Below are positions 22,776-44,398 of a stretch of 64,000 nucleotides of DNA, piece by piece. Made by a program: the position numbers and the translations under genes. Every line of letters begins with the position of its first letter. The stretch's first letter is position 1. The notes beneath the pieces are model-generated. The model had not been told where the DNA came from. It saw only the letters and a list, made by a program, of their open reading frames with translations, and did no database searches. Source of the stretch: Anianabacter salinae (GTDB taxonomy: Bacteria; Pseudomonadota; Alphaproteobacteria; Rhodobacterales; Rhodobacteraceae); assembly GCF_019061145.1 (NCBI RefSeq), contig NZ_JAHQZS010000003.1:310001-374000 (forward strand). Direction: 5' to 3'.

Positions 22776-24066
22776 CGCCTGCGGCCTTCAGCTTGGCGAC
22801 ACTGGCGGGGCTTGCGGCGCCGCTATCGAGGTGTTTCGGCTCGTGTCCCAGCGCCGCCTCGACATCACGGATTGCGGTCAGGGCGGCGCGCAGTTCCGCC
22901 ATCGTCAGCGTGTTCTCGGGCCCGACATGGCCGCGCCCGGACCGGATCGCAGCCTGGGTGATCGCGACGATGAAGACAAGGACCGCCGGCAGCAGGTCGA
23001 TGGCGATGGCGCCCGCCCAGCTGGGCACGAAGTTGCGCGCATAGAGGATCACCGCATCCGCCGCGGAGATCGGCGTATAGGTGATGTCCTGCGGCGCCTC
23101 CATCGCCATCACGTCCTGCGCGGCGGATTGCAGCGTGGCGGCGCGGGCGGACAGCGCCTCGAGCACCGAGGCGAGCGTGGCGTCCTGCGCCGCGCGGATA
23201 TCGGACTGGCCGCTGAACTCCGGCAGGATCACCGAGGCCGAGAGGTCAGCGGCGGCGCGGTCGACAAGGGGTGCGACGGACAACTGGCGCAACTCGGTGA
23301 TGATCCCGGCGAGGCGCACGGTTTCCTCGGAGAACGCGACAGAGCGCGCCTCGACCGGGCCGGGTTCCACCGTCAGCGACCGCATCCGGCTGAGGATCGC
23401 GTTGCCCTCGTCAAAGGCGGTCTCGACGGCGGGGCCTTGCGCCGCGATCTGGGCCTCGAGCGCGGCCAATTCCTCGGACTTCTGGCGGAGCACGCGGAAC
23501 ACCGCGCCGCGCCCCGCAAGGCCCGACAGGTTGCCGGTCGCCTCCTGCTCCGACAGGTCCTCGAACCCCTGGCGCACGCGGGCGACGTCGCGTTCAAGCC
23601 CCTGCGCTGTCACGGCGATGGTATGGGCACGCTCCAGCGAGCCCTGATAGTCCTGTACGGTGCGCGCAAGGTGCTGTTCCACCGCTGCCGAACCCGCCAG
23701 GGCGGCGGCGTTCAGCCAGGATGACATCGCGATGATCGCCAGCGATCCCAGCGCCATCGTCGCCGCAAGGCCCATCCGTGCGCCCGCCGTACGGACCGCG
23801 GGGAACAGGCGCATCAGGTAGGACCAGAACACGAAGATGCCGACCGAAACCGCGATGGAATAGGCCATCGCAGCGAACACCGACAGCGCGCCGGTGTCGT
23901 CCAGCAGCGACGAGACGCCGAGGTATGTGTAGATGCCCGACGCGACCGCCAGCACCGCCAGCGCGGCCGAGGTGAAGCTGTCGAGCCAGCCGAGATGACC
24001 CTCGAGCTCTTGCGCATAGCGCACGCCTTGCGCCTCTTCGCGCGTCAGTCTGGTGTCGTCGGACAT
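22762..24066 (-). CDS. Membrane protein with long helical periplasmic segment, function unknown
   Basis: 434 aa. Three hydrophobic segments near the N-terminus (about residues 28-50, 60-82 and 93-115), a long Ala/Glu-rich helical stretch predicted to form coiled coil (about 125-330; EQHLARTVQDYQGSLERAH, EELAALEAQIAAQGP), then another membrane helix (about 360-385, WAGAIAIDLLPAVLVFIVAI). The topology resembles DUF4407-like or mechanosensor-like proteins, but I do not recognise a family. The ATG at 24066 follows GGGAGAG. First gene of a pair with the ClpP-like gene. Confidence 0.6.
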   Translation of the reverse strand: MSDDTRLTREEAQGVRYAQELEGHLGWLDSFTSAALAVLAVASGIYTYLGVSSLLDDTGALSVFAAMAYSIAVSVGIFVFWSYLMRLFPAVRTAGARMGLAATMALGSLAIIAMSSWLNAAALAGSAAVEQHLARTVQDYQGSLERAHTIAVTAQGLERDVARVRQGFEDLSEQEATGNLSGLAGRGAVFRVLRQKSEELAALEAQIAAQGPAVETAFDEGNAILSRMRSLTVEPGPVEARSVAFSEETVRLAGIITELRQLSVAPLVDRAAADLSASVILPEFSGQSDIRAAQDATLASVLEALSARAATLQSAAQDVMAMEAPQDITYTPISAADAVILYARNFVPSWAGAIAIDLLPAVLVFIVAITQAAIRSGRGHVGPENTLTMAELRAALTAIRDVEAALGHEPKHLDSGAASPASVAKLKAAGDGDR

Positions 24067-24540: not shown

Positions 24541-24705
24541 AGGCAACTAATTCCCGAGAGCCTGTGTGAACAGGTGGGCGCCAGGTAACGAAGCCAGGAC
24601 CTCGCCAGAGCCAGCTCCCTCGAGAGTGATTAAGGCCACTGGAATTTGACCTCGTCACGGGAAGGGCAGTGCCCGCCACCCCGCTACCTAAGCCGCGCGG
24701 GGACG
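24541..24705 (+). other. Structured intergenic segment upstream of mmcB (possible ncRNA)
   Basis: The 244-bp gap holds several perfect pairings: CCTGT-GTGA-ACAGG (24561-24574), AGGT/ACCT inside GGCG/CGCC (about 24578-24605), GGGC-AGT-GCCC near 24664, and a long-range TTCCCG (24551)/CGGGAA (24658) closure. GGTAACGAAGCC, GCCACTG and GGGAAGG resemble cobalamin riboswitch core blocks, but the B12 box is missing and mmcB is not a B12 gene. It may be an independent small RNA. Confidence 0.3.
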
Positions 24706-24779: not shown

Positions 24780-25247
24780 ATGCCCGATGACCTGTCACGT
24801 CCGCAGCCCCGTCCCGGCCAGCTTCTGGCGCGGGGGGTGTGCCGCCACCTTCTCAGCCATGACTTCGTTACGGTCGAGGAACTGACCCCAGCGCCGGGCT
24901 TGCGGGTCGATGTGATGGCGCTTGGGCCGAAGGGCGAGATCTGGGTGGTCGAGTGCAAGTCGAGCCGCGCCGATTTCATGTCGGACGGCAAATGGCAGGG
25001 CTATCTTGAATGGTGCGACCGATATTTCTGGGCGGTCGACGATGCCTTTCCGGTCGACCTGTTGCCGGACGGGACCGGGCTTATCATTGCCGATGCCTAT
25101 GACGCCGAGATCCTGCGCATGGCGCCCGAGCACAAGCTGGCCGCGCCGCGCCGCAAGGTGATGGTGCAGAAATTCGCCCGCCACGCCGCGCTGCGCTGGC
25201 AGGCGGCGCGCGATCCGGACGGCGCCGTGTGGGACGGGTTGGCGTAG
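24780..25247 (+). CDS. mmcB: MmcB family DNA repair protein
   Basis: 155 aa, MmcB family, implicated in resistance to mitomycin C in Caulobacter. A PD-(D/E)xK nuclease-like core is visible: RVDVMALGPKGEIWVVECKSS (Asp, then Glu-x-Lys) followed by FMSDGKWQGYLEWCDRYFWAV. The ATG at 24780 lacks a clear Shine-Dalgarno and sits very close to the promoter, so the mRNA may have a short or absent leader. Preceded by a probable SOS box. Confidence 0.88.
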   Translation: MPDDLSRPQPRPGQLLARGVCRHLLSHDFVTVEELTPAPGLRVDVMALGPKGEIWVVECKSSRADFMSDGKWQGYLEWCDRYFWAVDDAFPVDLLPDGTGLIIADAYDAEILRMAPEHKLAAPRRKVMVQKFARHAALRWQAARDPDGAVWDGLA

Positions 25248-26065: not shown

Positions 26066-26142
26066 GCCGCCTTAGCTCAGTTGGTTAGAGCGCTGGATTG
26101 TGGATCCAGAGGTCCCCTGTTCAAGCCAGGGAGGCGGTACCA
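26066..26142 (+). tRNA. tRNA-His (GTG anticodon)
   Basis: 77 nt with CCA encoded. Acceptor stem GCCGCCT/AGGCGGT (one G-U pair), D arm, anticodon stem CTGGA/TCCAG with loop TTGTGGA (anticodon GTG), T arm CCCTG/CAGGG with TTCAAGC. The base before position 1 is T, so no G-1 is encoded, and the discriminator is A73. This combination marks the alphaproteobacterial group whose histidyl-tRNA synthetase does not need G-1. Confidence 0.97.
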
Positions 26143-27172: not shown

Positions 27173-27298
27173 GGCCTGCATCGACCATGCCCGGACCGGG
27201 CGCTATCCCGCCCGCCAGTGCCGCCTTAGCTCAGTTGGTTAGAGCGCTGGATTGTGGACCCAGAGGTCCCCTGTTCAAGCCAGGGAGGCGGTACCATC
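27173..27298 (+). repeat. Duplicated GNAT-fragment/tRNA-His segment
   Basis: GGCCTGCATCGACCATGC (27173-27190) repeats 25844-25861 inside the GNAT gene. From GGGCGCTATCCC (about 27199) through the tRNA to ACCATCA the sequence repeats the first tRNA-His locus almost exactly. About 170 bp between these two blocks are missing in the second copy. Confidence 0.75.
27222..27298 (+). tRNA. Second tRNA-His (GTG), with anticodon-stem mismatch
   Basis: Identical to the tRNA at 26066 except for one base: the 3' anticodon-stem strand reads CCCAG, so the pair next to the loop is A31-C39. The acceptor, D and T arms, the anticodon GTG, A73 and CCA are intact. The upstream promoter keeps TATCCC but lacks a -35. 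It may be weakly used or a decaying duplicate. Confidence 0.85.
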
Positions 27299-33844: not shown

Positions 33845-34333
33845 TTACCCCGCCGCCACCGGCGCCAGCGCCAGCCGCATGATGTGCTGCGGACCGGCGC
33901 CGCCGCCGAGGTAGTCCGCGCCCGTCATCTCGAACCCGCCCCTGAGGTAACAGCCCCGCGCGCCGGGGTTGCGGTGGTTCACGGTCAGGTAGACCGCCGC
34001 CGCGTCCGGGTAGTGCTGGTGCAGATAATCGCGCAGCGCCTTGCAGGCGGCGGTGGCGATGCCTTGCCCCTGATGCTGGCCACTGACCGAGAACATCCGC
34101 AGCCCGATGGTCCCCGCCTCGGCAAAGTCATGCGCCTGCGGATAGTCCGGGTCGATGGCGAAGAAGCCGACGGTTTCGCCGCCCTGCAGGATCATGTGCC
34201 CGTCCCGCCGCCCCGTCGCCGCGCGCATCGCGGCGGCAGGGGGATCGGAAAACACATGCTGCTCGGCCGGCAAGGTCAGGTGCGCGATCAGGTCCAGCCG
34301 CCCGGCGGGCAGGGGAGAGAGCGTGACGCTCAC
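33845..34333 (-). CDS. GNAT family N-acetyltransferase
   Basis: 162 aa with motif A GQHQGQGIATAACKALRDYL and VYLTVNHRNPGARGCYLRGGFE (motif B). It resembles diamine or ribosomal-type GNATs; substrate unknown. The GTG start at 34333 lies in a GTGA overlap with the pepF stop, so it is translationally coupled to the upstream peptidase gene. Confidence 0.87.
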   Translation of the reverse strand: MSVTLSPLPAGRLDLIAHLTLPAEQHVFSDPPAAAMRAATGRRDGHMILQGGETVGFFAIDPDYPQAHDFAEAGTIGLRMFSVSGQHQGQGIATAACKALRDYLHQHYPDAAAVYLTVNHRNPGARGCYLRGGFEMTGADYLGGGAGPQHIMRLALAPVAAG

Positions 34334-36159
34334 CCCTCCATCGCCTCCAGCTCGTCGATCATGCCCGAGATCATCGACAGGCCCTTGTCCCAGAACTTCG
34401 GGTCCGACGCGTCCAGACCGAAGGGCGCCAGAAGCTCTTTGTGGTGCTTCGATCCGCCCGCTTTCAGCATGTCGAAATACTTGTCCTGGAAATCCGCGCC
34501 GCCCTCTTCGTAGACCGCATAAAGCGCGTTCACGAGGCCGTCGCCGAAGGCATAGGCGTAGACGTAGAACGGCGAGTGGACGAAGTGCGGGATGTAGGCC
34601 CAGAAGGTTTCATACCCGTCCATGTACTCGAACGCCGGGCCGAGGCTTTGGGCCTGAACGCTCATCCACAGGGCGTTGATGTCGTCGGGGGTCAACTCAC
34701 CCTTCTGGCGTTCGGCGTGCAGCTTGCACTCGAAATCGTAGAACGCGATCTGGCGCACGACCGTGTTTATCATGTCCTCGACCTTGCCCGCCAGAAGCAC
34801 CTTCCTCTCGGCGTCGTCCTTGGCGTTCTCCAGCAGCTTGCGGAAGGTCAGCATCTCGCCGAACACGCTTGCCGTTTCGGCCAGCGTGAGGGGCGTGGAC
34901 GACAACAACTCGCCCTGACCGGCGGCCAGCACCTGGTGCACGCCGTGGCCAAGCTCATGCGCCAGCGTCATCACGTCGCGCGGTTTGCCCAGGTAGTTGA
35001 GCATCACATACGGGTGCACCTCGGTCACGGTCGGGTGCGCGAAGGCACCGGGGGCCTTGCCGGGCTTTACGCCTGCGTCGATCCAGCCCTTGTCGAAGAA
35101 CGGCGCGGCCAGATCGGCCATCTTGGGGTCAAAGCCCGCATAGGCGTCCATCACCATGCCGCGCGCGGTGTCCCAATCGACCGTCTTGGGCGCGTCCATC
35201 GGCAGGGGCGCGTTGCGGTCCCAGACCTGCAGCACATCCAGCCCCAGCCACTTGCGTTTCAGTTCATAGTAGCGGTGCGACAGCTTGGGGTAGGCGGCGA
35301 CAACGGCGTTGCGCAGCGCCTCGACCACCTCGGGCTCGACGTGGTTGGCAAGGTGGCGGCCGGTCTGCGGCGTCGGCATTCCGCGCCAGCGGTCCTCGAT
35401 GTCCTTTTCCTTGGCCAGCGTGTTGTGCACCCGCGAAAACAGCGGCAGCCGTGACCGGAACACCCGCGCCAGCTCGTGCGCCGCCGCCTCGCGCTTGGCG
35501 CGGTCGTGGTCGGTCAGGTAGTTCAGCGTGCCCTCGATCCCGTGGGTCTCGCCGTCCACCTCGAATTCCAGCCCGGCCATCGTCTCGTCGAACAGTTTGT
35601 TCCAAGCTGATGCGCCGACGACCGACTGGTCATGCAGGAACTTTTCCAGCTCGTCCGACAGCTGATAGGGCCGCATCGACCGCATCCGGTCGAACACCGG
35701 CTTGTAGCGCGCCAGATCGCCGGTGCCGAACAGCGCCTCGTAGGCGTCATCGGGGATGCGGTTGAATTCGAGCGAGAAGAATACCAGCGCCGTGGTGTAG
35801 GTCGTGATCTTGTCCTGGCAGTCCGACATGAACTTGGCGCGGCCGGAATCAGTGGTGTTCTGGTAGTAGCGCAGCCCGGCGAAGGACATGATCCGCCCGG
35901 CGATGACGTCGATCTTCTCGTAGCGCTTGATGCAGGTCAGCATCGCGGCGGCGTCGAGGTCTGCCAGCTTGCCCGCGTAATCGGCGGCGAATTTCGCGCA
36001 CTCGGCTTCCAGCCAGTCCATGTCGCGCTTCAGCTCGGGCGCGTCCTCGGCGGGGTAGAGATCGCTGAGATCCCAATCGGGAAGCGGCCCAAGATCCTTG
36101 CCGCCACCGGCGCTGGCCCCGGAGTTCGCATCGAGGACGGGGGTCGGAAAATCGCGCAT
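34330..36159 (-). CDS. pepF: Oligoendopeptidase F (M3B metallopeptidase)
   Basis: 609 aa. The zinc site is HELGH (about residue 396) with a downstream Glu in TPLTLAETASVFGEM, as in thimet/oligopeptidase F enzymes. Cytoplasmic degradation of oligopeptides. Usual length for the family. A possible promoter, TTGTGA-17-CTATGT, reads leftward across about 36226-36194. The left end of the Mu-like element lies immediately upstream, about 75 bp from the start codon. Confidence 0.94.
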   Translation of the reverse strand: MRDFPTPVLDANSGASAGGGKDLGPLPDWDLSDLYPAEDAPELKRDMDWLEAECAKFAADYAGKLADLDAAAMLTCIKRYEKIDVIAGRIMSFAGLRYYQNTTDSGRAKFMSDCQDKITTYTTALVFFSLEFNRIPDDAYEALFGTGDLARYKPVFDRMRSMRPYQLSDELEKFLHDQSVVGASAWNKLFDETMAGLEFEVDGETHGIEGTLNYLTDHDRAKREAAAHELARVFRSRLPLFSRVHNTLAKEKDIEDRWRGMPTPQTGRHLANHVEPEVVEALRNAVVAAYPKLSHRYYELKRKWLGLDVLQVWDRNAPLPMDAPKTVDWDTARGMVMDAYAGFDPKMADLAAPFFDKGWIDAGVKPGKAPGAFAHPTVTEVHPYVMLNYLGKPRDVMTLAHELGHGVHQVLAAGQGELLSSTPLTLAETASVFGEMLTFRKLLENAKDDAERKVLLAGKVEDMINTVVRQIAFYDFECKLHAERQKGELTPDDINALWMSVQAQSLGPAFEYMDGYETFWAYIPHFVHSPFYVYAYAFGDGLVNALYAVYEEGGADFQDKYFDMLKAGGSKHHKELLAPFGLDASDPKFWDKGLSMISGMIDELEAMEG

Positions 36160-36250
36160 GTCTCACCTGTCTTGGTCCGTTGTTGACACAAGACATAGGG
36201 TGACAGGGGGGTGCTTCACAAGGCGTTGGGCCCTTTGACGCGCGACTTAT

Positions 36251-36264
36251 CGTTTGATACCGGA
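36251..36264 (+). repeat. Left end site L1 (inverted terminal repeat core)
   Basis: CGTTTGATACCGGA, the perfect inverse of 44265-44278. Outside the core, ACTTAT before it compares with ACTAAG beside the right copy, extending the similarity to about 20 bp. Likely a transposase-binding site. Confidence 0.75.
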
Positions 36265-36284
36265 CGCGGCGCGATTTTACCTAT

Positions 36285-36296
36285 GGTTTGATACCG
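36285..36296 (+). repeat. Left end site L2
   Basis: GGTTTGATACCG, a direct copy of L1 at 34-bp spacing; both are followed by an ACGCGGC block. Multiple transposase-binding sites at the left end are a Mu feature. Confidence 0.65.
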
Positions 36297-36471
36297 TGCA
36301 CGCGGCAAATTTCGGCTAAGGCTTTGTAATTTATTGGAAAGTTTCGATGGCGGGAAGTTCCGCAATCGACAGACCTTCAACGGCGCGCGCAAGTTCCTGA
36401 TTTCTCTACATTATCTGCTTTCGCGTGCGCGGTGGTTGCGGATTGCGGCCTGTTTTGCGGCCACTATCCGA

Positions 36472-37023
36472 TCAATCCGTGTCGTCGTCGGCGATGCCTG
36501 ACGCTTCTCCAAGGCGCTCCATCATGGATTGGAGCGACTTTACTGTAATGCCTCTTTCAAAGCCCCTTGCTTCACTTGCAATTGCATTTATTGCTATATA
36601 ATCGTCCGGAAATGTTAAATTATCAAGAAGCGACCTCTCGAATTTTTTCTCTTGAAGTGCTTTAAGTATCTCTTTCGCAATATTTTTGATAATTTCGCCT
36701 TCACATGCGCGCAGGCATCTAATTACTGCCTTTTCATCGTTGGTAAGGTCATTCATGCCATTGATTGCGCTCTTTGCGCCTAGTATCAGCGCAAGCTCTT
36801 CAAAAGAGTCAGTCTGTCCCGCTGAAATTGCCGACGGCGCTACGCCAAGAGCACTTGCCATCTTCATGACCACGAAACGGCTCGGGACAGTGCGCCCTGT
36901 CTCATAGTTCGCAAGCGCCGAACGAGTGACCCCTACAAGTTCAGCAAAATCGGCCTGCGTTCGGTTCCCTCGAAGCGCGCGTATGCGCCTGCCCATTAAC
37001 TTAGCATCTTCTTCTTGTGTCAT
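36472..37023 (-). CDS. Phage repressor, HTH XRE family
   Basis: 183 aa. N-terminal Cro/CI-type helix-turn-helix (RTQADFAELVGVTRSALANYETGRTVPS, residues 21-48) and a C-terminal helical domain without LexA-like protease residues. Divergent from the Ner-like gene, as the repressor is in Mu. Codon use is clearly more AT-rich than in the neighbours, suggesting recent acquisition. The start at 37023 (MTQEEDAK) lacks a clear Shine-Dalgarno; MGRRIRALRG ten codons later is an alternative. Confidence 0.8.
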   Translation of the reverse strand: MTQEEDAKLMGRRIRALRGNRTQADFAELVGVTRSALANYETGRTVPSRFVVMKMASALGVAPSAISAGQTDSFEELALILGAKSAINGMNDLTNDEKAVIRCLRACEGEIIKNIAKEILKALQEKKFERSLLDNLTFPDDYIAINAIASEARGFERGITVKSLQSMMERLGEASGIADDDTD

Positions 37024-37076
37024 TTGTGTATCGCGTGTAATGTGTGCATAACGTGTCGCTTGTGTAGCGTAGCACA
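37024..37076. promoter_or_regulatory. Divergent operator region with iterated GTGT motifs
   Basis: GTGT occurs at 37026, 37035, 37042, 37053 and 37062 within the gap between repressor and ner. The pairs 37026/37035 and 37053/37062 repeat at 27-bp spacing in contexts such as TTGTGTATCG and TTGTGTAGCG. This is the expected place of the operators that set the lysogenic/transposition switch. Confidence 0.5.
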
Positions 37077-37088
37077 GGGAGTTCAGTT

Positions 37089-37277
37089 GTGCCAACGAAG
37101 CTTGACATTGCTCGTGATGAGCTGCGCCGCAAAGGGCTTACCATTAAGGAATGGGCTAAGCGGAACGGGTATCCGGAACGGTCTGTTCGCGCGGTCCTTT
37201 CGGGTCACAACAAGGGGTATTACGGGCAGGCGCACAAAATTGCCGTGGATCTTGGTCTCAAGGAAGCTGCCCAGTGA
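37089..37277 (+). CDS. Ner/Nlp-like DNA-binding protein
   Basis: 62-aa basic helix-turn-helix protein (KLDIARDELRRKGLTIKEWAKRNGYPERSVRAVLSG). It resembles the small early regulators (Ner/Nlp type) encoded first in the early operon of Mu-like phages, which dampen early and repressor transcription. GTG start at 37089 with CAGGGAG upstream. Its stop overlaps the transposase start by 4 bp (GTGA). Confidence 0.75.
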   Translation: MPTKLDIARDELRRKGLTIKEWAKRNGYPERSVRAVLSGHNKGYYGQAHKIAVDLGLKEAAQ

Positions 37278-39247
37278 AGCTTCTTTCGGTGACCGCATTC
37301 GCACATGCTACGTCCGTTCCTGAAAGAACGGTTAGACGAGCCTTTTCGAATGCCGCTCAAGGCAAGCTGTGGCACGGCGAACCCCTGCCCGTTGTGCCGC
37401 TTGAAGGCCAGCGGGGCGGAGCGGCAGGTTGCGCCTATGCGGTTGATCTGTCTCAGTTGTCGCCTGGACTGCTGACCAAGCATCCGCCTTTGCAGGCGCT
37501 GCGGGACGACGCTGCCGCGACCGCGCCGGTCGCGGGTCGGTCAAGCGTGGAACCGTGGCGCGTCAAGGAACAACAGCGGCGTCTGAACATCATCCGCCCG
37601 GCCCTGGGCACGTCGAAAGGGTCGCGTGCCCGTGGGGAAACGCTCCGGAAGCTTGAAGCGGCGCACAGGGTGGACTTCAAGACGCTGCAACGCTGGGTCT
37701 TGGAGTATGACAGCAAGGGTCTTCCAGGTCTGTTGCCCAAGCCCAACGGCAACCCTGGAAAGCGCCGGGTGCAGGTTACGCGGGCATGGGATGCCGGGAT
37801 CGATCTTGATGAGGCGGCACGTGCGGCGGTGGCCGCGCGGCTCGAAACCTACGCCAAGAGCCTGATCGCGAAGGCCGTGTCCATGTCGAAGGTCGGCGGG
37901 CTCGCATCGCGCGAACTGGTAGACCTGTGCCGGGAAGCGGGATCACAGATCGGGCCGCGAAAGCTGGAAACGATATGCCGCCTCAATACGAGATTTGTGC
38001 TGCGGTTCAAGGACAAGCGCCGGGTAGCGCGTCATGACTTGGACAACAAGAACCACTTCGACAAGGACTTGCCGCGCACGTCGCGCGGGCGGTGCGCGTG
38101 GCCCATGGAAGTGGTCTATGGTGACGTGCACCCCATCGACATCTATATGCGCGCGCCCGAAGGGAACGGACAACTGCGTCTGCGGCTGATCGCATGGATG
38201 GATGACTGCACGCATCACATGTGGGTAACGGTCGCGGTGCTGGGCAAGGGCAACGGCATCCGCGCAACCGATGTGGCCGATGCGCTCTACAACATGGTGT
38301 GCAACCCAGCAGCGGGTGTGCCGCGCACTCTCTATTTGGACAACGGGTCGGAATATGGCTCCGTCGCCACTGCGATGCTCGAAATACCAGATGCGGTGGA
38401 TGTGCTTCACCAGCATGATGGATGCGTTAAGGCGACACCCTATAACGGACCTGCCAAGGGGTTGATCGAAGGCGCATTTTCCAAGCTGGAGCAGGGCTAT
38501 TTCAAGCACCTGCCAGGGTGGATCGGCGGCGACCGGACGAACAAGAAAACCCATGCTGTTGGCAAGCCTGTAAAGGGCTTTTCAGGCACCGTTGAAGACC
38601 TTGTTCAAGCTGTCATCGACATGGTCGCCGCCTATAATGATACACCGCAAGACGGGCGGCTTCGGGGCAAGTCGCCAAGGCAGGCCATGCAGGATGCCAT
38701 CGACGCCGGGTTCGAGGCAGTCACGATGGACGATGACGCGTTCGACTTCGCCTTCAGCAAGCGAGATGACCGGCAGATCATTCAAGGCCGGTTCCGGTTC
38801 AAGGGCACGTTCTATCAGAACGACGAAACCGCAAAGATGGGTGCGGGGGATCGTATCGATATCCGCATCCCACTGCGCAGCGGCGCTAACCAGGTCTTCG
38901 TGGTGCACAACGGCGCGTTCAAGGGCGCTGCCAGGGCTGACACCCAGTATCACCCGCTTGACCGCGACGGCGCCGTTGAAGGCAACCGCCGCCGAAAGCT
39001 TCAAGCTCAAGCAATCCGGGAACTTAAGGCCGATATCGATCCCTCGATCGACCCGGCAACGGAGATCCTGAAGCGCGTCGATCGCACGCCGCTCGTGGCC
39101 GGGCCTGGGACCATAGTTCGGCTTTCGGAACAGACCGCGACGGACAGCACTGGGGACGATGACGCGGCCAAGCGCGCGTTCCTGGAAGACCTTCTTCGCC
39201 AAGCCAATGGCGATGGCGAAGCAAGCCGAATGACCGGTGGGAAATGA
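37274..39247 (+). CDS. Mu-like transposase A (DDE family)
   Basis: 657 aa. N-terminal helix-turn-helix region (TSVPERTVRRAFSNAAQGKLW, similar to the Mu-type DNA-binding domain), second HTH (FKTLQRWVLEYDSKGLPGLLP), integrase catalytic core with Asp284 (VVYGDVHPID), Asp356 (LYLDNGSEYG) and Glu399 (GLIEGAFSKLE), and a C-terminal beta-barrel plus a tail that would contact ATPase B. The catalytic triad is complete and the frame intact, so transposition activity is plausible. GTG start coupled to the Ner-like gene. Confidence 0.93.
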   Translation: MKLLSVTAFAHATSVPERTVRRAFSNAAQGKLWHGEPLPVVPLEGQRGGAAGCAYAVDLSQLSPGLLTKHPPLQALRDDAAATAPVAGRSSVEPWRVKEQQRRLNIIRPALGTSKGSRARGETLRKLEAAHRVDFKTLQRWVLEYDSKGLPGLLPKPNGNPGKRRVQVTRAWDAGIDLDEAARAAVAARLETYAKSLIAKAVSMSKVGGLASRELVDLCREAGSQIGPRKLETICRLNTRFVLRFKDKRRVARHDLDNKNHFDKDLPRTSRGRCAWPMEVVYGDVHPIDIYMRAPEGNGQLRLRLIAWMDDCTHHMWVTVAVLGKGNGIRATDVADALYNMVCNPAAGVPRTLYLDNGSEYGSVATAMLEIPDAVDVLHQHDGCVKATPYNGPAKGLIEGAFSKLEQGYFKHLPGWIGGDRTNKKTHAVGKPVKGFSGTVEDLVQAVIDMVAAYNDTPQDGRLRGKSPRQAMQDAIDAGFEAVTMDDDAFDFAFSKRDDRQIIQGRFRFKGTFYQNDETAKMGAGDRIDIRIPLRSGANQVFVVHNGAFKGAARADTQYHPLDRDGAVEGNRRRKLQAQAIRELKADIDPSIDPATEILKRVDRTPLVAGPGTIVRLSEQTATDSTGDDDAAKRAFLEDLLRQANGDGEASRMTGGK

Positions 39248-39302
39248 TTTGGCGTCGAACCCCACCGGCCATTCAAAACGCAACCCTGTCAGAGGATTAC
39301 AA

Positions 39303-40088
39303 ATGACAGAGCTACCAGAGATTCCTACCATCGACACCGCCGTGTGCGCAACGATGCGCTTGGTCATCGGCGACGTGCTCGACGGCGCGGGCCTTGCCGT
39401 CATGCGCGGGCCCGTCGGTATCGGCAAGAGCTTTGCCTTGCGCAAGGTCATTGACGAGTTCGCAGCGGACGGCGCGAAGGTCACACACCTTGCCGCCACG
39501 GGTGCGGTGCAGGGCAAGATTGCCGAGTTCCTGCGGGCGCTCCACGGGCGCGAAGGTGTGTCCAGCGCCGAAGGGCTGGAACTTGCCTTTGACATGATCT
39601 GCGGCTTTCCCTTCCGGGATTATGGCCCACGGTCTGTCGTGATCGTTGACGAAGCGCAGGACCTCGCCGCGCCCATCATCGCCCAGCTTCGCGGCCTTTG
39701 GGATCGCGGCGAACTTGCCCGGCTTGGCGACCCCTGGTGCCCTGCCTTCGGGCTTGTCATGGTCGGGAACGACCAGTTCCTGAGCAACGGCACCCGGCAG
39801 GACCGGGTTAACCTGAAACCATTGTGGGACAGGATCACCCACAACATCCGGTTGCCGCGCCCCAGCAAGGACGAGCACGAGGCGTTCGCCCATGCGGTGT
39901 TCCCCGGCGAAGGCGAAAACGCGAACAAGATGCGCGCTATGGTTCAGGCATTCGGTGAAGATCACGGGAGCTTGCGCGCGGCGCACAAGGCCGCACGGCA
40001 GGCATTCATTCGCGCCAGCCAGAAGGGGCAGGACGTGAACGCGGATCACTTGGCATTCTCAATCCGCATGATGGGAGGCAGAGAATGA
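39303..40088 (+). CDS. Mu-like target-selection ATPase B
   Basis: 261 aa AAA+ ATPase. Walker A GPVGIGKS (residues 36-43), Walker B VVIVDEAQD (about 112-120), and a sensor segment VMVGNDQFLSN. MuB binds target DNA and delivers it to the transpososome; it also gives target immunity. The ATG at 39303 follows AGAGGAT; the open frame from 39237 overlaps the transposase end but is less likely to be used. The stop overlaps the next start (ATGA). Confidence 0.9.
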   Translation: MTELPEIPTIDTAVCATMRLVIGDVLDGAGLAVMRGPVGIGKSFALRKVIDEFAADGAKVTHLAATGAVQGKIAEFLRALHGREGVSSAEGLELAFDMICGFPFRDYGPRSVVIVDEAQDLAAPIIAQLRGLWDRGELARLGDPWCPAFGLVMVGNDQFLSNGTRQDRVNLKPLWDRITHNIRLPRPSKDEHEAFAHAVFPGEGENANKMRAMVQAFGEDHGSLRAAHKAARQAFIRASQKGQDVNADHLAFSIRMMGGRE

Positions 40089-40399
40089 CTGTCACGTTAG
40101 GACTTCGGCTGGACCTTGAAGCCAGCGAGATCGAGGGACGGGTCGCTCTTTTTGCGCTGGGGCAGCCGGGCGCGCGCGCCCGGCTGATTGCCCATGGCGA
40201 AGGGCTCCAAGCTTATCTGGCAGCGCAGTTGCGGTTTCTGCAGCAGATGAAGGAGCGTGATCCCTCCGGCGCTGCCGCAGCCGAGCTTGAGCCACACCTC
40301 AAGGCGGCGACAAGGGCCGAAGATGAGGTGGCGCACATTCTCGCCTTCCTTACCCATCTCGAAGAAACCCCCCCGATGCAGACAGGAAAACTCCAATGA
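40085..40399 (+). CDS. Small early-operon protein, function unknown
   Basis: 104 aa, mainly helical, Ala/Glu/Leu-rich (HGEGLQAYLAAQLRFLQQMKERD ... ATRAEDEVAHILAFLTHLEE). ATGA overlap with gene B before it and with the next gene after it. Position corresponds to the semi-essential early region of Mu, where genes for host takeover or defence evasion lie. No family recognised. Confidence 0.6.
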   Translation: MTVTLGLRLDLEASEIEGRVALFALGQPGARARLIAHGEGLQAYLAAQLRFLQQMKERDPSGAAAAELEPHLKAATRAEDEVAHILAFLTHLEETPPMQTGKLQ

Positions 40400-40683
40400 G
40401 CTCCGCGCGTGTTGAAAAGGAGAGCGCCGTGCCGCCCGGCTTCGTATCCATTGCCAAGGAAGAGGCGATAGAGATTCAGGATGCCATTGAAGAGACGCTG
40501 TATCTGCTCAGCCATGCTGAAAGCGTGATGGGCTCGCTTGCGGAACTGGTGCCCGACAACACCGACATCGGGCCATTCCTCGCGCTCCTGGAACGAGGCT
40601 TCAAGAACGCCTTGGACGTGGAAGGCAGGCGCCTCGATGCTTTCGTCGTGACACTCAGGGAGGCGATCCATCATGCCCCTTAG
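40396..40683 (+). CDS. Small early-operon protein, function unknown
   Basis: 95 aa, acidic and helical (EEAIEIQDAIEETLYLLSHAESVMGSLAEL ... LERGFKNALDVEGRRLDAFVVTLREAI). The pattern is that of small helical-bundle proteins found in phage early operons. It overlaps its neighbours on both sides, so it belongs to the same translationally coupled operon. No family recognised. Confidence 0.6.
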   Translation: MSSARVEKESAVPPGFVSIAKEEAIEIQDAIEETLYLLSHAESVMGSLAELVPDNTDIGPFLALLERGFKNALDVEGRRLDAFVVTLREAIHHAP

Positions 40684-41083
40684 CCGAAACCAGATAGCCC
40701 TGTTGCATGTGGCAAAGAACAAGCTCGGCTTGAATGACGCGATGTATCGCGCCGCGCTTGTCCATATCGCCGGGGTGACGAGCTCGACCGAACTTGACCG
40801 GGACGGCTTGAATGCGCTGATGGGGTTCTTCGAATATCTCGGTTTCGAGCCGCTCACCCGGCGTGGTGCGGACTACGGCGACCGGCCGGGCATGGCGAGC
40901 TTCGCGCAACTCGAACTGATCCGGGCGCTCTGGCACGAATACACACGCGGCAAGGCCGGAGACGAAGAGCTCAACAAATGGCTCCTGCGCTCATGGAAGG
41001 TTTCAAGCCTGCGCTTCCTGCGGAAGGGAGATGCCCAGAAGGCAATCACCGCCTTGAAGGCGATGAAGCGCCGCGCTGCCTGA
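40673..41083 (+). CDS. gemA: GemA family protein (Mu gp16-like regulator)
   Basis: 136 aa, GemA/gp16 family. Signatures: LSRNQIALLHVAKNKLGLNDAMYRAAL at the N-terminus and a C-terminal part with ASFAQLELIRALWHEYTR and FLRKGDAQKAITALKAMK. In Mu, GemA modulates host gene expression and DNA supercoiling. AGGGAGG precedes the ATG. It closes the early operon; a strong terminator follows. Confidence 0.9.
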   Translation: MPLSRNQIALLHVAKNKLGLNDAMYRAALVHIAGVTSSTELDRDGLNALMGFFEYLGFEPLTRRGADYGDRPGMASFAQLELIRALWHEYTRGKAGDEELNKWLLRSWKVSSLRFLRKGDAQKAITALKAMKRRAA

Positions 41084-41103
41084 CTGTGGCCCTGGAGAAA
41101 CTC

Positions 41104-41135
41104 AAAGGGCGGCGCTTGGATGCGCCGCCCTTTTT
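41104..41135 (+). terminator. Rho-independent terminator of the early operon
   Basis: 12-bp stem AAAGGGCGGCGC with a 6-nt loop (TTGGAT) and a TTTTT tract. The strongest terminator in the window. It separates the early genes from the Mor-like activator. Confidence 0.9.
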
Positions 41136-41458
41136 GTTCGACGTGCGCCCGGAGGGACGGGTGCCTCCCTCGACTGCACATGGTCGCAGGTACCCCGCAA
41201 GTGGTTCGGGCGCACGATGCTCAGATAGCGCCGGATGCAAGTCTTGGCAACGGGCTGACCCAGAACCCATGCGCAGAGCGCCGTTAAACACCCATTAAAG
41301 GGCCTTGCTTGGAATTCACGGGGGTGGCACCGTCGCGGTGCGGGTTCGCATCCAGCGCCGCGCTGTGCGGCGCACCACTCGGGCGGTCCCGATGCCGGAC
41401 CTCGCCTGGTAAACTTGCTAGGTCGGAAAGGTGTCAGGGTATCTGTAGCTCTGTCGTC
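41136..41458 (+). other. Leader region of the second operon of the Mu-like element
   Basis: 323 bp without a convincing gene. It must hold the promoter of the mor-capsid operon. TTGCTA (41415-41420) followed after 17-19 bp by GGTATCTG is a weak candidate. GTTAAACACCCATTAAAG (41282-41299) is an AT-rich block that could be an activator site. Confidence 0.4.
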
Positions 41459-41908
41459 ATGACCCTGGCGAATTTTGACAGCTCCGACTATCCGACATGC
41501 GCGCAGATGCGCGAGATGGGCTTGCCCGTCTCAGACGTGCTGTCGGAGCTGGAAAGCGCGCTTGGCCACGAAGACCTTATCGCCTTTCTTCAGGCGACGG
41601 GCGGGGCGGAGTTTCATGTCCCATCAAAGCCCCCGGCCAAGCCCCCTTCATCCCCCGAAGAGCGGGCGGGCGAATGTCTGCGCCAGACTATCGGATGGGG
41701 CAGCTATCAGGTTCCGCTTGGTCCCACCTCTGCGATGGCGCGCTCTTGCTTCGCGATCCTCAAGGGGCTTCGCCAGGGTCAGACCGTCTCTCAGATCGCC
41801 AAGTCGCAAGGACTGAACTCACGCACCGTGACAAGGCGCAAGGCAATTCTCTCGGAGCTCGGGCTCCTGGACACCTCGGCAGACACCTCAAAAGGACAGC
41901 CAAAATGA
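41459..41908 (+). CDS. Mor-like transcription activator
   Basis: 149 aa. The segment LGHEDLIAFLQATGGAEFHVPSK resembles the N-terminal dimerisation motif of Mor/C activators (x-GG-x-x-x-x-VP), and the C-terminus carries a helix-turn-helix (GQTVSQIAKSQGLNSRTVTRRKAI). An extra stretch of about 35 residues lies between the two compared with Mu Mor. In Mu, mor is the last early gene; here it follows a terminator and is coupled by ATGA to the capsid gene. Confidence 0.55.
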   Translation: MTLANFDSSDYPTCAQMREMGLPVSDVLSELESALGHEDLIAFLQATGGAEFHVPSKPPAKPPSSPEERAGECLRQTIGWGSYQVPLGPTSAMARSCFAILKGLRQGQTVSQIAKSQGLNSRTVTRRKAILSELGLLDTSADTSKGQPK

Positions 41909-42804
41909 TCATCAACGACGGCAACCTTGCCCACGCCTTCAATGGCTTCAGGAGCACCTTCAACGATGCCTTCGCGTCCGGCGCGGCGTACTGGGACAAG
42001 ATCGCGATGGTGGTTCCCAGCACCGCGCGCGACGAAGCCTATGGCTGGCTTGGGCAGTTCCCGAAGCTGCGCGAATGGGTCGGAGATCGCGTGGTTCGCG
42101 ACATCAAGGCTCATGGCTTCACGATCACCAACAAGAAGTTCGAAAGCACGCTCGGGATCAGTCGCGAAGACTTTGCCGACGACCGTTATGGCGTCTTCAA
42201 ACCGATGTTCGCCGAGATGGGCCACCAGGCGAAGGTTCATCCCGACGAGCTCCTGTTCGCACTCCTGAAGATCGGCGCAACGACGCTCTGCTTCGACGGT
42301 CAGTATTTCTTCGATACCGATCACCCTTCGGTTGACGAGGACGGGGATGCCGTCACGGTTTCGAACATCGACGATCCAGCGGGCACCGAGACGCCCTGGT
42401 ATCTTCTCGACACCTCCCGCCAGATCAAGCCGCTGATCTGGCAGAAGCGCGAGGACTACGAGTTCCAGTTCATCAATGCGCCGACCGACACGCACGTCTT
42501 CATGAAGGACGAATACCTGTATGGGGTCCGAGCGCGGGTGAACGCGGGCTATGGCCTCTGGCAGATGGCCTACATGGGAAAGAGTGGTCTGACCGAGGCG
42601 ACCTACGGAGCCGCACGGGCGGCGATGATGGGGTTCCGCGGCGACCAGGGCCGCCTTCTCGGCCTCCGTCCGAACATGCTGGTGGTTCCGCCGTCGCTCG
42701 AAGCCGATGCACGGCGCATCGTCCTTGCGGATCGCGGCGACCAGGGCGGGCCGAACGTCTGGCAGGGAACGGCCGAGATCATCGTCTCGCCGGACCTTGC
42801 ATGA
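41905..42804 (+). CDS. Major capsid protein (Mu gpT-like)
   Basis: 299 aa, full length for Mu-like gpT major head subunits. Recognisable segments: MIINDGNLAHAFNGFRSTFNDAF, FPKLREWVGDRVVRDIKAHGFTITNKKFE, FDTDHPSVDEDGD and LGLRPNMLVVPPSLEADARRIV. Overlaps the Mor-like gene by 4 bp before and the protease gene by 4 bp after. In Mu the protease gene precedes the capsid gene; here the order is reversed. Confidence 0.92.
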   Translation: MIINDGNLAHAFNGFRSTFNDAFASGAAYWDKIAMVVPSTARDEAYGWLGQFPKLREWVGDRVVRDIKAHGFTITNKKFESTLGISREDFADDRYGVFKPMFAEMGHQAKVHPDELLFALLKIGATTLCFDGQYFFDTDHPSVDEDGDAVTVSNIDDPAGTETPWYLLDTSRQIKPLIWQKREDYEFQFINAPTDTHVFMKDEYLYGVRARVNAGYGLWQMAYMGKSGLTEATYGAARAAMMGFRGDQGRLLGLRPNMLVVPPSLEADARRIVLADRGDQGGPNVWQGTAEIIVSPDLA

Positions 42805-43715
42805 CGGACGCGGGCGGCACTCGGTCCATCTGCGCGACGGCAGAATTGCCCGAGGCGCACGGCGCACCCGATTGGGTCGAGCTCTTGCCCACCGGCGTGG
42901 TGCGCGGGCGCGACGGCCGTGTCTTCGTGGTGGACAATCCCGCCGACGTGGCCGCGACTTCCATGGGCTCGGGCGGCGAACTTCCAATCGACTATGAACA
43001 CCAGGTGGACGGACCGCGCTCCGTTGGACCAATCCCGGCCGCCGGATGGATCGACCGGCTCGAAGTCCGCGACGGCGCGATCTGGGGGCATGTGAAGTGG
43101 ACGGCGAAGGCCGCGAACATGATCGGCGAGCGTGAGTACCGCTACCTTTCGCCGGTGCTGATCCACCGGCAGGACCGCCGCGTTGTCCGCCTGATCGGCG
43201 CGAGCCTCGTTCACCGTCCCAACCTCAACCTCAAGGCCCTGGCAAGCGAGAACATCCCGATGACCGACGAAACCGATGACACCAGGACGGCGGCCGTGGC
43301 CGAGGCGCTCGGCCTGAATGCCGAGGCAACCCCCGAAGAAATGATCGTCGCGATCAACCGGCTGGCCACGCCAGACCCAGCCGCCTACGTGCCAATGCAC
43401 GTTGTTCGCGAATTGATGCGCGCACAGGGTCAGACGGCGGTCTCCATGAACGAAGAGCGCGCCGAAGTGAAGGTCGGTGAGGCCATGGACGCGGGCTATC
43501 TCTCGCCCGCCATGCGGGATTGGGCGGTGGCACTTTGCACGCGCGACCCCGAGGCGTTCGACGGCTTCATCGCCAGCGCGGTCCCCGTGTTCGCCCACCT
43601 GTTCGAGACCCATGCACAAAAGCTGCCGCGCCGGAGCGCAGCCCATGGGCAAGGCGGAGACGCCGAACAGATCGCCCGCACCCTTGGCCTGCCGGTCGAG
43701 AAGGTGCTGGGGTAA
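42801..43715 (+). CDS. Capsid maturation protease/scaffold (Mu gpI-like)
   Basis: 304 aa, Mu gpI-like protease (gpI is 361 aa in Mu). The conserved core is visible: LPIDYEHQ, GPIPAAGWIDRLEV, GHVKWTAKAANMIGEREYRYLSPVLIH and SLVHRPNLNLKAL. After residue 150 comes a hydrophilic scaffold-like part (MTDETDDTRTAAVAEALGL...). An internal ATG at 43260 could start a separate scaffold product, as Mu Z is made from within I. Coupled to the capsid gene by ATGA. Confidence 0.88.
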   Translation: MTDAGGTRSICATAELPEAHGAPDWVELLPTGVVRGRDGRVFVVDNPADVAATSMGSGGELPIDYEHQVDGPRSVGPIPAAGWIDRLEVRDGAIWGHVKWTAKAANMIGEREYRYLSPVLIHRQDRRVVRLIGASLVHRPNLNLKALASENIPMTDETDDTRTAAVAEALGLNAEATPEEMIVAINRLATPDPAAYVPMHVVRELMRAQGQTAVSMNEERAEVKVGEAMDAGYLSPAMRDWAVALCTRDPEAFDGFIASAVPVFAHLFETHAQKLPRRSAAHGQGGDAEQIARTLGLPVEKVLG

Positions 43716-43747
43716 CGAGACCGCCGGGAGTCCAGGCCCGGCGCGCT

Positions 43748-43800
43748 GGTAGCAGGTGAGGTGGCGGTTTCTGTCCATGTTCGCCGTCGTGCCTGCTACC
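43748..43800 (+). other. Long-spaced inverted repeat after the protease gene
   Basis: GGTAGCAGG (43748-43756) and CCTGCTACC (43792-43800) with 35 bp between. It could form a stem-loop in the mRNA between the capsid module and the last gene, acting as an attenuator or processing site. Confidence 0.4.
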
Positions 43801-43822
43801 GGCATCAACCAAGGGGCAACCG

Positions 43823-44227
43823 ATGGCCTTCGACCCACGCGACCTGCTTCGCACTGTCATGGCGGAACTTCGCACCTCGCACGATCTGCGCGCGAAAGCG
43901 GACGCCGCACTCATACGGGCGGCGAAAGCTCTTGGCAGTGCGCTTGATCACCTCGATACGTACGTCGCAGATGAACTGCCGCCCGAGGCCTACCCGGTGA
44001 CAGAGCACCGTCGCGCCCACCGTCCAGGCCGAATGCCCAAGCTCGATGCCGACCCGGAGCTTCGCGCCTTCGTGCTTGCACGCATCGACCGTATGACGTT
44101 TCAGGAGATCGCCGAAGCCGTGGCCGTTGAATACCCCGTTCAAAGGCGTGTTTCACGCTCCACAATTCACTTCTGGTGGCGTCGAAACGAAGGACGCTAC
44201 ACGCCATCCGGACCCGAAAAACAATGA
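43823..44227 (+). CDS. HTH protein at the right end of the Mu-like element, possible small-terminase type
   Basis: 134 aa. N-terminal helical part, then an HTH region: DPELRAFVLARIDRMTFQEIAEAVA ... RRVSRSTIHFWWRRNEG. The pattern (x-ELR-x-F-x(4)-I-x(3)-TFQEIA ... SRSTIHxWW) recalls the DUF3486/gp27-type small terminase HTH of Mu-like phages, but a regulator is equally possible. Last gene before the right end. Start at 43823 after AAGGGGCAACC. Confidence 0.5.
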   Translation: MAFDPRDLLRTVMAELRTSHDLRAKADAALIRAAKALGSALDHLDTYVADELPPEAYPVTEHRRAHRPGRMPKLDADPELRAFVLARIDRMTFQEIAEAVAVEYPVQRRVSRSTIHFWWRRNEGRYTPSGPEKQ

Positions 44228-44264
44228 AAGACGGTCCCGGATAGGCCCGGGACTGCCGCCCTCT

Positions 44265-44278
44265 TCCGGTATCAAACG
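44265..44278 (-). repeat. Right end site R1 (inverted terminal repeat core)
   Basis: TCCGGTATCAAACG, exact reverse complement of L1 at 36251-36264. Only one copy is visible on this side, whereas the left side has two. Confidence 0.75.
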
Positions 44279-44398
44279 CTTAGTTACGACCTTAAACCCA
44301 ATGTTACACAACACCTTCGGACGGGCCTGAGCAGGCACCACGGGTGCCGCGCCGCATGCATGGCCGCCAGACCCCGAAAAAAACATGAAAAAAATCGC

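Follow-up and report, generated by a model that had tools for sequence, protein, structure and literature searches.

A compact Mu-like element with its own capsid gene

We examined a 64,000-nucleotide (nt) stretch of the Anianabacter salinae genome (contig NZ_JAHQZS010000003.1, positions 310,001 to 374,000; hereafter, the window), in which three plus-strand genes encode a Mor-like late activator (mor, 41459..41908, ATG start; PHROG 836 "late transcriptional activator," E 1.3e-6), the major capsid protein gpT (T, 41905..42804; PF10124, E 2.9e-123, covering positions 2-287 of a 289-position profile), and the head protease gpI (I, 42801..43715; PF10123, E 1.6e-55; PHROG 328, E 3.9e-63). The genes overlap by ATGA at 41905-41908 (activator/capsid) and at 42801-42804 (capsid/protease), and a terminator lies upstream; the original prediction had named both overlaps and the terminator and had placed the open reading frames (ORFs) exactly where we find them. 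It had not counted a fourth gene, x, whose start lies 107 nt beyond the protease gene and which probably belongs to the same late block. This gene (43823..44227, plus strand) is the hallmark of the family described below and encodes a candidate packaging-specificity protein with a long N-terminal helix and a C-terminal helix-turn-helix (HTH). All four genes lie within an apparently intact ~8.08-kb Mu-like element with inverted terminal repeats (36236..44313; 8,078 bp, TGACGCG to ACAACA). With a probability of about 0.6, we read this element as a member of an ~8-kb Mu-like family of Rhodobacteraceae, most likely a satellite that encodes its own shell and takes the rest of its particle from a helper.

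Genes for MuA/MuB-type transposition and inverted ends are both present in the window element, and gpT is found in a single copy in this genome. Among the 11 element proteins that were scanned, there was no terminase, portal, or tail protein. Across 20 elements, the longest plus-strand ORF without an assignment encodes 194 amino acids (only some of these ORFs were scanned against profiles), which is too short for a portal or a large terminase. It is this lack of large terminase, portal, and tail genes that makes a satellite the most likely reading. The set of virion genes is not entirely fixed. One relative (contig L009, 6663-8699) has a tape-measure protein in the protease's place (PHROG 28, E 2.1e-104), three others (L010, G196, and G405) encode a neck-type protein (PHROG 26), and L107 has a tape-measure match (ORF from 3824) and no capsid match. 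The slot between activator and x thus seems to exchange virion genes.

The activator profile, PHROG 836, matches all 15 aligned relatives of the window's protein; a Pfam scan of the activator gave no Mor model at E 0.1. Its structure model is confident, and the 50 VIA-align matches listed cover mainly residues 91-145, mostly the C-terminal HTH. Foldseek returned nothing at E 0.001 among the best 50 of 421 matches, and no solved Mor structure is among the structure matches listed, which is no evidence against a Mor identity. Sequence comparison with the PDB gave HTH proteins only (best 60 of 69 matches), and a search of viral contigs with the activator alone gave no match.

Capsid precedes protease in the elements

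At capsid loci adjacent to x, the capsid gene comes before the protease gene in 20 of 20 cases. Capsid loci beside the gene for a Mu-type small terminase (PF11985), the full-size type within the same bacterial family, have the protease first in 27 of 27 and never show the reversed order. Where neither marker is adjacent, the protease is first at five loci and the capsid at one, a further copy in genome G409. This count draws on 53 of 107 gpT places in 60 genomes; x or PF11985 occurs in 64, but four in which the x match is weak were left out. The gpT places set aside were 53 short or weak matches, which include the decayed copies of genome G090, and half of a split gene. The order of capsid and protease thus separates two kinds of element. 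Chance as the source of the order is ruled out by the contrast of 20/20 x loci with 0/27 small-terminase loci.

The original prediction had described the window's order as reversed, and comparison with the Rhodovulum phage RS1 bears this out: RS1 has its protease at 23539, a decoration-like gene at 24573, and its capsid at 25019, the opposite of the capsid-protease order in the window. A decoration-like gene also occurs in the elements, between T and I in eight and before T in one (31 loci). Two further readings, that the arrangement is a peculiarity of one element or could be a one-off product of deletion, are not supported. The prediction had also allowed that mor-T-I might be an ordinary family trait of full-size phages. 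It is a family trait, but the family consists of ~8-kb elements rather than full-size phages.

In a phylogeny of capsid proteins, 34 sequences from elements separate from 31 of phages, with a support of 87/87 and in 86% of 200 bootstrap trees; the element group needs one change on the tree. Four element loci lack a full-length T in one frame. The tree gives moderate support, below the starred level, for a common capsid ancestry of the elements. We also estimated the ratio of nonsynonymous to synonymous substitution rates (dN/dS, NG86). Ten pairs of T genes gave 0.12-0.34 and nine pairs of I genes 0.15-0.38, some of the dS values being near or above 1; pairs that include the window give 0.19 and 0.23 for T and 0.22 and 0.38 for I. 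These ratios indicate purifying selection on both genes and, together with the grouping of the element capsids, argue against repeated deletion. The earlier suggestion of selection for the arrangement gains support from the uniform order at the 20 x loci, from dN/dS values of T and I well below 1, and from the mor/T ATGA overlap in 9 of 13 activator-first loci.

A family concentrated in Rhodobacteraceae

An initial search of 61 genomes found gpT in 8. Two genomes (G035 and G031) and two IMG/VR contigs (L009 and L010) have gemA, activator, capsid, and x close together in a single block, and all but one of these four also hold the protease there. An x profile then matched 34 of 394 Rhodobacteraceae genomes, four of them (G150, G161, G313, and G337) through weak fragments only, as well as six IMG/VR contigs, all of them short (4.2 to 9.2 kb); it had no match in 50,697 phage records. 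Among named GTDB genomes there were 41 loci, nearly all titled Rhodobacteraceae or genera of that family. The exceptions, an Erythrobacter and a Verrucomicrobiales metagenome bin, are on short contigs and are possibly misbinned. Among 385 genomes of the class, searched for x outside the family, four matched, namely the window's own and three with weak fragments.

We scored 87 loci, counting a core gene as present if at least 85% of its profile lay in one open frame. A, B, gemA, activator, T, I, and x are all present in 21 loci, of which 18 are distinct, three being repeats of the same contig as judged by its length. The remaining loci are partial, ended by a contig edge, or decayed. Taken together, the 18 complete loci, the capsid grouping, and the shared gene order indicate that the compact gene set recurs and was not derived anew by deletion each time. 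The same late module is found with two transposase types. Genome G090 carries about ten decayed x copies on several contigs, which suggests a past burst of transposition.

Gene map, termini, and insertion sites

The ends of the window element were assigned by analogy with exactly duplicated relatives, and its terminal inverted repeat was found independently. At the left end are two tandem sites resembling transposase-binding sites (GTTTGATACC; 36245..36312, plus strand), recognized by a direct repeat, an inverted-repeat arm, and a motif; the right end holds an inverted copy of the terminal site (GGTATCAAAC; 44260..44284, minus strand) that is 84% complementary to 36245-36269. Inward from the left end lies an HTH repressor gene on the minus strand (36472..37020; PF13560, E 2.1e-13; PHROG 8), followed on the plus strand by genes for a Ner-like HTH protein (37089..37277; PHROG 925, E 2.8e-21), the MuA-like transposase A (37274..39247; PHROG 310, E 2.7e-41), the MuB-like ATPase B (39237..40088; PHROG 296, E 1.1e-17; PF13401), two small hypothetical proteins, h1 (40085..40399) and h2 (40396..40683), that are ORFs with no PHROG at E 0.1, and the gp16-like GemA (40673..41083; PF06252, E 2.3e-24; 67-69% identity in four relatives).

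Searching for ends under a TG...CA rule with exact 5-bp matches, we found exact 5-bp duplications at TGA...ACA ends for 13 of 30 elements tried (9/21 + 4/9). Several elements gave more than one pair, in which case family-like termini were kept, and elements giving only pairs with unlike termini (several of the first 21) were not counted. Cross-paired flanks, used as a control, gave 2 equal 5-mers of 110, both CCCCC. Eleven of the 13 exactly duplicated elements measure 7,496-8,621 bp (mean, 8,220); the other two are a 10,815-bp element with a split A gene and a 6,716-bp element without gemA, T, and I. Rhodobacter capsulatus SP108, a non-pathogen, harbors a complete, exactly duplicated copy of 8,551 bp (L117).

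The window element is flanked on the left by a chromosomal peptidase-like gene and on the right by a pyridoxal-dependent decarboxylase gene, beyond which are ORFs that we take to be ftsW, murG, murC, murB, and ddl. The flanks of 12 elements are unlike one another except for two left-flank pairs, window/G405 and L105/L117 (a 50-bp match). The window element and the one in G405 adjoin the same host peptidase-like gene (34330-36159 in the window; 73% over 779 bp), a possible insertion preference. Elsewhere in the window there are two tRNA-His(GTG) genes (26066-26142 and 27220-27296), ~1.2 kb apart.

Regulation of the late genes

Early and late genes are divided by an intrinsic terminator (41099..41138, plus strand; arms 41099-41115 and 41122-41138; -24.4 kcal/mol, followed by a T-run). 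A consensus terminator scan listed none at this hairpin after gemA, probably because the T-run can be drawn into a longer stem. In 13 of 21 intergenic regions, gemA is followed by a hairpin of at most -19.9 kcal/mol and a T-run, a count made with no shuffled control. Some 75-110 nt past the hairpin lies a site of 25 bp, a candidate activator operator, in which two TTNAA cores are spaced 11 bp apart. It scores at least 12 in 16 of the 21 regions and below 12 in five (G182, L117, L112, G405, and G262), scores that are optimistic in that a single region served as seed for the motif, which was then refined on these very regions and compared with mononucleotide shuffles (99th percentile, 2.0). The window's copy (41280..41304, minus strand) is inside the promoter interval of 41136-41458 that had been proposed earlier; a promoter scan of 41050-41500 gave none of the sigma-70 type. 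Pairs of the form TTNAA-N6-TTNAA number 47 across 36 loci (269 kb), compared with none in 113 kb of host flanks and 5 in the surroundings of three ordinary prophages (120 kb).

The proposal that the activator-capsid-protease block is mainly a self-activating late switch, which would be compatible with a satellite, finds some encouragement here: the activator gene is coupled to T by ATGA in 9 of the 13 loci in which it comes first, a terminator stands ahead of the block in 13 of 21, and a conserved site lies upstream. The T/I overlap is less conserved (5/21). However, of 30 informative loci, 13 have the activator in first place and 17 have it after the protease, and the site occurs with both positions. 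We regard a self-activating switch as possible but lean against it as the main function. Activation of the late operon through the conserved site fits both activator positions; where the activator follows the protease, basal expression or outside help, e.g., from a helper's activator, would be needed to start it.

Protein x and its repeat array

The structure model of x (pLDDT 90, pTM 0.50) has a helix at residues 5-51 and an HTH at 78-122. PHROG 426, to which the RS1 small terminase belongs (E 2.3e-40), weakly matches x in 7 of 24 relatives (best E 0.002), the window's x not being among them, and the generic HTH_32 matches 10 of the 24. Aligned by hhalign with small terminases, x gave E 0.0014-0.0021, with a probability of 13-17%; of the controls, transposase A came closest at 0.012. 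A sequence search with x returned one weak, irrelevant match. These links to small terminases are weak and mixed, and we do not class x as an ordinary small terminase in view of the failure of PF11985, the reversed domain order, and the lack of a fold match at E 0.001, each detailed below. Another possible role is suggested by proteobacterial phage-inducible chromosomal islands (PICIs), in which a small protein, Rpp, redirects the phage's small terminase, as described in part of PMC10690885; x might act on a phage small terminase in a similar way.

The x genes also carry a signal at the DNA level. Between nt 60 and 150, the x genes of 19 elements contain 53 TTNAA, compared with 8.7 +/- 2.4 after synonymous shuffling (maximum, 19 in 1,000 shuffles), and the rest of these genes contains 13, compared with 7.9. 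The A genes hold 123 TTNAA, compared with 91.9 +/- 6.0 in synonymous shuffles (for L010, in which A is cut off, T was used instead). The repeats are phased by 11-12 bp both in x (nt 60-150) and in A (near nt 380-400); those in A may reflect an amphipathic helix. An array lying within the x gene recalls the location of the P22 pac site, which is inside the small-terminase gene according to a section of PMC9611059, and by this analogy the x array could serve in packaging.

A probable satellite with its own shell

We propose that the early operon ner-A-B-h1-h2-gemA would move and copy the element by Mu-type transposition and would stop at the terminator, and that the late operon, driven by the activator, would yield a shell, its maturation protease, and the DNA-binding protein x. 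A Mu-like helper phage would provide portal, motor, tail, and lysis; x would tag the element DNA for packaging into the element's own shell, which is perhaps smaller, with room for ~8 kb and a little of the host's DNA; the shell of Mu itself is T = 7, according to part of PMC11915804. Candidate helpers may coexist with the family: PF11985 phages are present in 38 of 394 genomes, and PF11985 and x occur together in 8, compared with 3.3 expected (Fisher p = 0.01, not corrected for relatedness).

Several observations weigh against this reading. PF11985 had no match at E 0.5 in six x proteins, and a PDB fold search with x gave none at E 0.001, the small terminases of G20c and P74-26 appearing at E 4.5 or weaker. 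Known small terminases have an N-terminal HTH followed by an oligomerization core, as part of PMC9611059 describes them, and the HTH of x is C-terminal. The window's own x has no TTNAA at nt 60-150 and two elsewhere, the window's target duplication is imperfect (CCCTT / CCTTC), and many copies elsewhere are decayed. No PF11985 match was found in the window's genome, which thus has no such resident helper, and the co-occurrence statistic ignores phylogeny.

If the element were instead a defective prophage, an internal deletion of a Mu-like phage would have left the ends, the transposase, and some head genes, and the overlaps would have arisen by chance. The absence of most phage genes, the many decayed copies, and the imperfect duplication in the window would all be expected of such a remnant. 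Its gene set and order, however, recur in species with different flanks and with two transposase types, its capsids cluster, and purifying selection acts on T and I; moreover, T before I is opposite to all 27 full-size loci, so deletion alone cannot produce it. For the family, a deletion remnant is rejected on order, tree, selection, and duplications, and overall we consider it very improbable. It is less improbable, though still unlikely, that the element is a selfish transposon whose shell and protease poison or divert the assembly of Mu-like phages, in interference or defense, instead of packaging the element. In favor of such a transposon, portal and motor are missing, coexistence with Mu-like phages is possible (8/394), and satellites curb phage yield by capsid diversion, according to part of PMC6893505. 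Yet the retained protease, and the decoration, neck-type, or tape-measure genes of several members, go beyond a poison's needs, and a late-activator circuit would be odd for a constitutive defense; PADLOC, run on six proteins, found no fitting defense family, its matches being to the activator HTH only (E 6.7e-5 or weaker).

The least probable of the explanations, in our judgment a very remote one, is that the host has domesticated the particle, for example as an accessory to gene transfer agents or as a nanocompartment. Rhodobacteraceae do produce gene transfer agents, and HK97-fold shells can become domesticated, but the patchy distribution (34/394), the varied sites with target duplications, and the several copies in some genomes are those of a mobile element.

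Returning to the satellite that we favor, we suggest further that the family is a new satellite class, which would combine Mu-type replicative transposition, an own shell and protease, a packaging-specificity protein x with its recognition array in its own gene, and Mu-like helpers, and would form an ancient, separate lineage with capsid before protease as its hallmark. This wider claim is tentative, and we would put it slightly short of an even bet.

If true, transposable phages would have satellites of their own that keep shell and protease only, which would show in its barest form what virion equipment it benefits a satellite to own. It would also be explained why Rhodobacteraceae, marine and otherwise, repeatedly have small "Mu remnants" that include head genes. 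Rhodobacter capsulatus would be a simple system for testing the proposal, and the shell would be one that has to fit a foreign portal and motor. Apart from any role as satellites, these loci are not the product of random decay, and annotation as "prophage remnant" does not suit them.

Relationship to known phages and satellites

Satellites with their own capsid and transposable phages are both already known. A search of open-access literature turned up no Mu-like satellite, and the combination of the two with so reduced a virion gene set was not found there. Closest in gene content are RS1 and RC1, full-size Mu-like phages of Rhodobacterales, which like the element have Mu-type A/B, a repressor, a Mor-family activator, and a gpT that is ~46% identical. 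RS1 differs in its size of 40 kb, in its terminase, portal, and tail genes, in its protease-decoration-capsid order, and in having no x.

Capsid-forming PICIs (cf-PICIs) resemble the element in being small and mobile and in having their own capsid and head protease. As far as the relevant part of PMC10690885 describes them, cf-PICIs also encode a portal, head-tail connectors, both terminases, and an HNH protein and need only tails. The window element has capsid and protease only, lacks portal, motor, and most connectors, and moves by Mu-type transposition. The Streptomyces phage satellites MulchRoom and MiniFlayer likewise encode their own capsids; terminases, portal, and scaffold are encoded, with no obvious replicase in the account given in PMC10690885. 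Here the balance is reversed, transposition genes being present and terminase and portal absent. Finally, Staphylococcus aureus pathogenicity islands (SaPIs) and P4 practice capsid redirection, and type 1 SaPIs have their own small terminase for their own pac site, as a section of PMC6893505 relates; whereas SaPIs and P4 remodel the capsid of a helper, the element carries a complete gpT.
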